A stretch of 64,000 nt of DNA, taken from NCBI RefSeq assembly GCF_012027555.1, contig NZ_SNUQ01000001.1, forward strand, positions 434,001 through 498,000, in the 5' to 3' direction. A program made the position numbers and the translations under genes. Positions 43,535 through 45,489 of the stretch are shown here, one piece after another. This stretch comes from Thermococcus sp. CX2 (GTDB lineage Archaea > Methanobacteriota_B > Thermococci > Thermococcales > Thermococcaceae). The notes below the pieces were generated by a model. The model made no database searches. It saw nothing but the letters and a program-made list of their open reading frames with translations, and was not told the origin of the DNA. Position 1 is the stretch's first letter. The number at the start of each line of letters is the position of its first letter.

Positions 43535-45221
43535 GTTCACTGGAAACTGGTTCATTGACGCAGGCATTTTGGGATTCGTGAATTTGATGGAGGAAGTTTA
43601 CGGCTGGGACTTGAATGAGCTCCAGAGGCGCATCAAAGAGGAGCCGGAAAAAGTTTACTATGGGTATTTTCCTCTGGCGTATCTGTTTCATCACTCAGTT
43701 TATCACAAGTACATTAAGAACGTTCAAGACTTGAAATCCCAGATATCCGACATTGGGAAGAAGCTTCGAGATGTCGAGAACTCTCTCAAGACCTTAAACG
43801 ACGAGCTCTCAAAAAGCCCAAGAAAAATGGAAAAGAAGCTGAGAAAGCAAATTGAGAAAAGTGAGAAAAAGGCAAATGAGCTGAGAACAAAGGTGGAGGA
43901 ACTTTCCAAGAAAATAGACCAGGAGAGACATTTCCTTGAAAAAGAACAGAAAAATCTCCAGGAGGTTTCAAAAGATCTTGTTGAAGAACTTCTCAACGAT
44001 GAAGAGAACAATTTTGAAAACGCACAAGAACGCCTTTTTCAGACAATTGGTCACTACGAGCTCCAGATACCTAAGGATCACAGGAATTTCTTCCTGTACA
44101 ATCCCAAAAAGAAGCCAATAATGGCCTTCCAGTACCTTTACTGGCTTCTCAAGATGAATTACGATCGGCTGAAGGAAATTAAGAAAGGAAAACTACCGAC
44201 GTACGAAAAGATTCCTGACTCAACGATAAACCCCTTCCTCTATTCCCCTGTTGAATTCCCAAACGTGAGCTACACGAAGCCTTTAACTGTCGAGCAGATA
44301 ACAAAAATGCTCCCTGCAGGAATGCCGGCCTATGCTATTTTCCTGTCCTTTTTCAACGCTTTCCAGTGGATCCCCGGAAGCTACGTAATGATTTACACTC
44401 CAGAACTCCAAAGCTGCTACGCGATAAACAAGAGGCTGAAAGTTCACATTCAAAGTTCCAATGGCAAGGCAATGCTCTTCAGACTAACATGGTCTGCAAT
44501 AATAGACGAAATCGTGGAAACCAAGGCAAGGTTTTCTCTTGAGAATCTATACATCATTGAATTTGAAAACATCGAAAACCAGAAGCTCAAGGGCGTCGAA
44601 TACGTAGGTATCCCCAAGCTCCACGCCTCAATAATCCTAGACAACGAGATTAGGGATGCGATAAACACCTCAATACCAACTGGCGATTCAAACGTCTGGC
44701 TCCTCGGTGAGTTTATAAAGCAGAAAACGCTCTATCCGCTGATTTCAAAGCACGTGTGGAATGCCGTGAAGGACAATGGTTTCCTCAACTGGAAGGCAAG
44801 CTTCTATGCTCTCGCTATTGACGCAAAGTTAAGGAAAGAAGGAACTTCCAGGACCCTATTTGACAAGGCCTTCTTCGATCGTCCAAAGCGGGCGGCAGTT
44901 GAGGCGAAGGACTTCTACAGAGATATGGTTCATGTTGCCGCGGTACTCAAAGAGCTCTCACAGGAAATTAACGGAAAGAATATAATTCATCCACTCTTCT
45001 CAGCGCTAAGAAGGCACAACAGAAATGCCTTTGTCAATATCCTGCTCAAAGCACTCCTCCAAGCCAAAAGCAAAGACAAAGTTGCAACGGTTAACAACTA
45101 CCTCTTCAGGCGCGTTCTGAACAACGATGAATCTTGGGAGGATTTCGCTCTCGTCCTGATTATTGGTCTCGCCGGAGGCGGTGGTGATGTCGGTTCAGAG
45201 GGAAAAGTTGTGGAAGATTAA
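43515..45221 (+). CDS. cas8: Cas8 large subunit, Cst1 type, with coiled-coil insertion
   Basis: The 568-residue protein starts like Cst1 ([20 protein letters not shown], then [17 protein letters not shown]) and has the position of a Cascade large subunit. Cst1 proteins are named for two CXXC pairs; here only one cysteine is visible (QSCYAINK). Residues of about 68-160 are instead a highly charged coiled coil (for example [20 protein letters not shown]). The C-terminal 90 residues form a helical domain ending [12 protein letters not shown] that resembles the next protein. It should recognise the PAM and recruit Cas3. ATG 43515 follows GGTGAAAGTTG. Confidence 0.88.
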
Positions 45222-45489
45222 AAAGCTGAGCGGAGAAGTTCTTGGCAAGGCCGGCTCGAACAACTACCAGCAGAAGCTCGTGTTTGACCTACTCAATGCA
45301 GTCAAGGCAAACGACCAGAACGAGTTTCTCTGGATTCTGCTCAGAGCTATCAACGCCCACTCCAAGGACAACCCTAACGCTAAAAAACTTGCTTCCGCGC
45401 TTATGGAAGTCTTTCCTTCTTCCGAGGCAGAATTTGAGAAAGTTGCCTACTCTGTTATACTTGGCATAATGGCTGGAGGTGGTGGTTAA
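45187..45489 (+). CDS. Cas11-like small subunit, paralogue of the Cas8 C-terminus
   Basis: The 100-residue helical protein starts at ATG 45187 after GGAGGCGGTGGTG, inside the last 35 bases of cas8, and its TAA overlaps the cas7 ATG. It matches the Cas8 tail: LNAVKANDQNEFLWILLRAI here versus [20 protein letters not shown] there, and VILGIMAGGGG versus [13 protein letters not shown]. Small helical proteins at this position are Cas11 subunits lining the Cascade belly. Many type I-B systems make Cas11 by internal translation of cas8; here it is a separate gene while Cas8 keeps its own copy of the domain. Confidence 0.8.
   Translation: MSVQREKLWKIKKLSGEVLGKAGSNNYQQKLVFDLLNAVKANDQNEFLWILLRAINAHSKDNPNAKKLASALMEVFPSSEAEFEKVAYSVILGIMAGGGG

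Follow-up and report, generated by a model that had tools for sequence, protein, structure and literature searches.

How does a type I-B CRISPR system supply its free small subunit when a gene for that subunit stands beside a cas8 carrying the same domain? A 2026 paper states that a separate cas11 gene is absent from type I-B systems and that Cas11 arises by internal translation (PMC13199841), and in Haloferax I-B the internal initiation of Cas11 is known from experiment (PMC11899642). The locus considered here lies in a stretch of 64,000 nucleotides from Thermococcus sp. CX2 (contig NZ_SNUQ01000001.1, positions 434,001 to 498,000), called the window throughout and numbered from its first nucleotide. 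An initial annotation had read a 100-residue protein encoded between cas8 and cas7 as a Cas11-type subunit copied from the end of Cas8. The features of the locus are as follows.

42686..43534, + strand: cas6 (TIGR01877, E = 2.8e-48; PF01881, E = 1.7e-31)
43512..45221, + strand: cas8, 569 residues, Cas8b of the PADLOC PDLC01542 family (PDLC01542, E = 2.1e-141, residues 4-557)
44934..45185, + strand: Cas11-like C-terminal domain within Cas8, residues ~475-558 (PDLC01541, E = 6.7e-5; hhalign; AF2)
45174..45186, + strand: Shine-Dalgarno (SD) sequence GGAGGCGGTGGTG of cas11, which encodes a Gly-rich tail in the cas8 frame (sequence; duplex energy -11.9 kcal/mol)
45187..45489, + strand: stand-alone cas11 (Cas11b), 100 residues, ATG start (PDLC01541, E = 8e-49; PDLC02050, E = 3.6e-9)
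45475..45482, + strand: SD sequence GGAGGTGG of cas7, part of GGGG in the cas11 frame (sequence; GGAGGTG kept in orthologues)
45489..46670, + strand: cas7, Cst2/DevR (TIGR02585, E = 1.7e-78)
46667..47503, + strand: cas5, Cas5t/Cas5b (TIGR01895, E = 1e-31)
47494..50133, + strand: cas3, HD and helicase (TIGR01587, E = 1.3e-64; TIGR01596, E = 6.6e-15)
50241..50753, + strand: cas4 (TIGR00372, E = 1.1e-23)
50734..51732, + strand: cas1, type I-B (TIGR03641, E = 9.2e-130)
51729..51986, - strand: cas2 (TIGR01573, E = 1.2e-13)
52509..54876, + strand: CRISPR array of 36 identical 30-nucleotide repeats GTTGCAATAAGACTCTAGGAGAATTGAAAC, repeat-to-repeat spacing 64-69

The order cas6-cas8b-cas7-cas5-cas3-cas4-cas1-cas2, with a Cas1 of I-B type, Cas8b and the array downstream, is that of a type I-B system. 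The cas8 start codon is TTG at 43512, with an ATG directly after it at 43515. The cas11 reading frame begins within cas8, giving a 35-nucleotide overlap that ends with the cas8 stop codon (45219-45221), and its own TAA overlaps the cas7 ATG at 45489. cas2 runs opposite to the remaining operon and is convergent with cas1.

Identity of the small protein and of its Cas8

The PADLOC Cas11b profile PDLC01541 (CAS-I-B effector_SS) matched residues 3-99 of the 100-residue protein, and the bacterial Cas8b model PDLC02050 matched it through the model's tail. Judged by these profiles, the product is the Cas11b small subunit of type I-B, in keeping with the stand-alone Cas11-type subunit that had been claimed. 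The gene is already catalogued in PADLOC, where PDLC01541 names it and nothing more. It is under purifying selection (dN/dS about 0.14). Similarities to SwaI-like proteins and to cytosine methylases in Pfam and NCBIfam were discarded as chance matches.

The reported alignment of the protein with the C-terminal ~90 residues of Cas8 was borne out. BLASTP against Cas8 aligned a central block (E = 2e-4), and profile-profile comparison of the stand-alone proteins with the Cas8 tails covered residues 8-99 (hhalign, 13 orthologues each, 96%, E = 4.9e-9). When the Cas11 profile was compared with full-length Cas8, the tail was the sole match (94.2%, E = 1.2e-7; next-best place 1.0%), and the homology of the tail is therefore well beyond chance. 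Bacterial Cas8b tails were matched both by the stand-alone proteins (96.8%, E 2.5e-10) and by the Thermococcales Cas8 tails (E 1.7e-7). The match of PDLC01541 to the tail confirmed that Cas8 has kept its own version of the domain. A block N-x-F-x-x-I-L-L-x-A, put forward as shared, was indeed found in both members of the pair (NEFLWILLRA in the small protein), but its first residue is not conserved and is D, N or R among orthologues.

AF2 models of the small protein (all-helical, mean pLDDT 91.4) and of the Cas8 tail (mean pLDDT 86.2) each contained five helices. Foldseek searches of the PDB with both models gave no match at E <= 0.001; for the small protein Cmr5 (2zop, a type III Cas11) ranked third, at non-significant E-values of 0.57-2.6. 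By the proposed structural check, similarity to known Cas11 was weak and non-significant. A sequence search of the PDB with the Cas11 profile returned designed or unrelated helical proteins only. In types I-A, I-E and III the small subunit (Csa5, Cse2 and Cmr5/Csm2) likewise has a separate gene, and the adjacent large subunit carries a helical domain at its C-terminus; no sequence link between these small subunits and the window's Cas11 was found.

Among the matches listed, neither NCBIfam nor Pfam offered a Cas8 model for the window's Cas8, and the two collections name neither this protein nor its Cas11. The Cst1 family TIGR01908 and its PADLOC copy PDLC00966 were likewise absent from the matches listed for this Cas8, although TIGR01908 does match a second Cas8 class of Thermococcales, class B (E = 1.5e-75). 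By these profile comparisons the window's Cas8 lies outside the Cst1 (Tneap) family, though the accompanying Cas7 and Cas5 are Cst2- and Cas5t-like. The N-terminal half of Cas8 contains a long charged coiled coil (residues ~62-180, window 43690-44050), to which SMC, Rad50 and DndD models gave chance matches.

Distribution of the separate gene

Among 94 Thermococcales genomes, PDLC01541 was present in 13 and the window's Cas8 family in 14. The separate gene was present at 13/13 assessable loci of this family (a fourteenth, which ends at a contig edge, was left out) and at no other locus. Cst2-type Cas7 scored above the cut-off in 56 of the 94 genomes, and the examined Cst2-type loci lacking the separate gene carried a Cas8 of class A (about 420-460 residues) or of class B (Cst1, TIGR01908); in both classes cas8 runs directly into cas7. 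According to the initial annotation, a Cas11 gene is not known to have been described for the Cst systems of Thermococcales. True Cst1-type loci of this order do lack one, but a PADLOC profile for the gene exists and the Cas8 encoded here is not Cst1.

In a scan of 84,980 species with two short peptide patterns, which distant relatives could escape, the stand-alone gene was limited to Thermococcus and Thermococcaceae records; the same scan returned distant Cas8 tails in Aneurinibacillus and in a Bacteroidales MAG. A scan of viral contigs yielded no relatives.

Bacterial I-B loci showed two other architectures. In the embedded form, Cas8 (about 475-615 residues) carries the tail and a separate gene is absent. 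In the split form (L104-L106 and L112-L115), Cas8 is shortened to about 373-420 residues with no tail detected, and a Cas11b gene of 159-181 codons (PADLOC PDLC01190/PDLC01193) lies between cas8 and cas7. The window's cas11 resembles the split gene in adjoining cas8 upstream of cas7 and in being homologous to Cas8b tails. The split loci are, however, a case of fission and not of duplication, whereas the Thermococcales family of the window retains the tail in Cas8 and has a separate cas11 in addition.

Ribosome-binding sites and the internal start of cas8

The identical GGGG endings of Cas8 and Cas11, cited as a mark of common descent, are real, but ribosome-binding sites account for most of the resemblance. 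In Cas8 the ending is the translation of GGAGGCGGTGGTG, immediately 5' of the cas11 ATG; in Cas11 it is the translation of GGAGGTGG, upstream of the cas7 ATG. Since these codons double as the SD of whichever gene follows, GGGG says little about homology; orthologues end in GGG, GGE, GES or GER while GGAGGTG is mostly kept, and GGGG was rejected as the main sign of duplication. The duplex energy of the window's cas11 SD is comparable across nearly all full orthologues, with values of -10.4 to -13.4 kcal/mol in all except G023, which was scored (-6.7) at a codon other than its likely GTG start. Gly-rich tails examined over the gene pairs of the window were suggestive at most (p = 0.09). The homologous ending is instead the motif A-x-x-x-x-G-[IL] that precedes GGGG and is present in bacteria too.

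Internal starts were scored by pairing the 3' end of 16S rRNA (AUCACCUCCU) upstream of in-frame ATG, GTG or TTG codons lying 80-140 codons before the cas8 stop, with a threshold of dG <= -7 kcal/mol. An internal SD with a start was present in 52/53 relatives that lack a separate cas11 (bacterial embedded groups, 14/15 and 10/10; Thermococcales class A, 19/19; class B, 9/9), as against 0/12 in the window's Cas8 family, where the separate gene is present; the best value in the window's cas8 was -3.7. The background rate, taken from intervals of equal size at other places in these genes, was 3-32%. In synonymous-codon shuffles 27/28 class A and B genes fell below 0.05, as did 9/25 genes of the bacterial groups, where support is weaker, since the SD there follows from the amino acid sequence itself. 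A Fisher test of the contrast (p = 3e-12) was set aside as evidence, since the sequences are related and the separate gene is restricted to one clade, so that the contrast may reflect one evolutionary event and the p-value is no measure of independent cases.

With 0/12 where the separate gene is present and 52/53 where it is absent, the separate cas11 probably replaces internal initiation. The class A and B genes (L044-L062, L064-L073) had an internal SD and start of -13.4 to -16.2 kcal/mol in 28/28 cases, located about 88-102 codons before the cas8 stop in class A and about 124-133 in class B. These genes, those of Cst1 type included, are predicted to give rise to an internally translated Cas11, and the earlier statement that related systems make Cas11 in this way agrees with the pattern at the level of prediction from sequence.

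It could be argued that the window's Cas8 also yields a free tail through internal initiation without an SD, so that free Cas11 of two sorts would be mixed in the belly of the complex. Many Thermococcales tails have a Met about 97-98 codons ahead of the Cas8 stop, and archaeal initiation is possible at sites poor in, or devoid of, an SD (PMC11899642). The pairing at this Met is only -2.4 to -6.6 kcal/mol, however, against the far stronger sites of the other Thermococcales cas8 classes, and a conserved Met can be structural; we regard production of both forms as improbable.

Origin of the separate gene and proposed roles

In a tree of 58 tails and stand-alone proteins, the stand-alones formed one clade (96/88) and the Thermococcales Cas8 tails another (99/99), and the two were joined at 91/85. 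The stem of the Cas8 tails was the longer (3.46 versus 1.16). Mean identity was 22.5% between stand-alones and bacterial tails, 19.2% between stand-alones and their own Cas8 tails, and 17.2% between Cas8 tails and bacterial tails. AU tests rejected neither a grouping of the stand-alones with bacterial tails (p = 0.366) nor one of the Cas8 tails with bacterial tails (p = 0.40). Pairwise distances of Cas11 and the Cas8 tail were correlated (r = 0.88); either against the remaining Cas8 gave 0.39 and 0.37, and this low correlation suggests an independent course of evolution or recombination for the N-terminal part. At L035/L040 (G088 contig 241) Cas8 seems to be split over two frames, and the tail grouped in another subclade than its own Cas11, pointing to recombination or an assembly chimera.

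We favour, without regarding it as proven, a duplication of the cas8 3' end within the window's lineage; that this took place in tandem and gave rise to cas11 is likely but unproven. Of the two copies, the Cas8 tail has changed more: since the stand-alone is nearer than the Cas8 tail to bacterial Cas11 domains, it is the tail that seems to have diverged once duplication had occurred. The earlier wording, that the domain was copied out of Cas8, is therefore plausible as to direction, but the AU tests reject no alternative and the most altered copy is the one that stayed in Cas8. On balance we lean towards a history in which duplication split a two-in-one gene: the ancestral Cas11 sequence would have persisted in the new gene, whereas the Cas8 tail, no longer bound to serve as Cas11 too, would have shed the internal start and diverged some three times as far, giving a belly with a specialised first unit.

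In a different history, the native copy would be the Cas8 tail found at the locus, and the stand-alone gene would have come from another I-B locus, by horizontal insertion or from an ancestor of split type. This would equally place the stand-alone closer to the embedded tails of bacteria than to the Cas8 tail beside it, both in identity and in profile comparison, and would agree with the first AU test. A slower rate in the stand-alone accounts for the same similarities, however; the best tree joins the stand-alones with the Thermococcales Cas8 tails, and genes like them were found only in Thermococcales beside the window's Cas8 family. We consider such a foreign origin possible but rather unlikely, and retain duplication as the preferred account.

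Experimental work on other I-B systems suggests what the two copies may do. In the Synechocystis I-B Cascade, the non-target strand is held by a belly of one Cas8b tail and three Cas11b subunits (PMC11096372); in Haloferax, Cas11b is required for effective interference (PMC11899642); and in Thermotoga, Cas8 fails to co-purify without Cas11, and the internal start does not work in E. coli (PMC13199841). From the Synechocystis belly and the Haloferax requirement we infer that the separate protein serves as the free Cas11 and the Cas8 tail as a fixed first unit. A single stretch of cas8 would do double duty in relatives, as the Cas8 C-terminal domain and, through the internal SD and start, as free Cas11. 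In the window's family these two jobs would be carried by two paralogous sequences: free Cas11 would be translated from its own cistron, with the last cas8 codons as its ribosome-binding site; the internal start would have been lost; and several free Cas11 subunits, with a single Cas8 C-terminal domain, would assemble into a belly that, facing the Cas7/crRNA backbone, holds the non-target DNA strand. We hold this division between two genes to be very probable.

An accessory or regulatory role outside Cascade, for instance as an inhibitor mimicking the Cas8 tail, would fit the weak structure-search similarity to known Cas11, and membership of the complex is here a prediction from sequence. Yet the gene is fixed in the operon of the window's Cas8 family, where overlaps couple it to cas8 and cas7; it matches the Cas11b profile and co-evolves with the Cas8 tail; and cas8 has lost the internal start from which Cas11 would otherwise come. 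Such a role is thus highly improbable, and a Cas11b subunit of Cascade remains our reading. A Cas8 tail and a separate Cas11 as two belly modules are the usual state of subtypes that have their own cas11 gene (I-E, for example), so two such modules would not be unique to this locus.

The window's Cas11 is the same kind of domain, in the same subtype, as Cas11b of Haloferax volcanii and Synechocystis 6714. There, however, one sequence serves for both forms, whereas here two genes have diverged (to about 19% identity) and an SD-led internal start is absent. In the I-B Cas11 literature surveyed, mostly outside subscription journals, we found no mention of the duplicated arrangement with a lost internal start. 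The window's Cas8 family is an exception to the I-B rule of no separate cas11, and one in which Cas8 still keeps the domain. With two sequences in two genes, mutations can be placed in the Cas8 tail without touching free Cas11, or the reverse, an option that is closed where both are encoded by one sequence. The survey further leads to the prediction that internal starts in the remaining cas8 classes of Thermococcales give rise to Cas11, and the family offers a thermophilic I-B Cascade that may assemble without reliance on an internal start.
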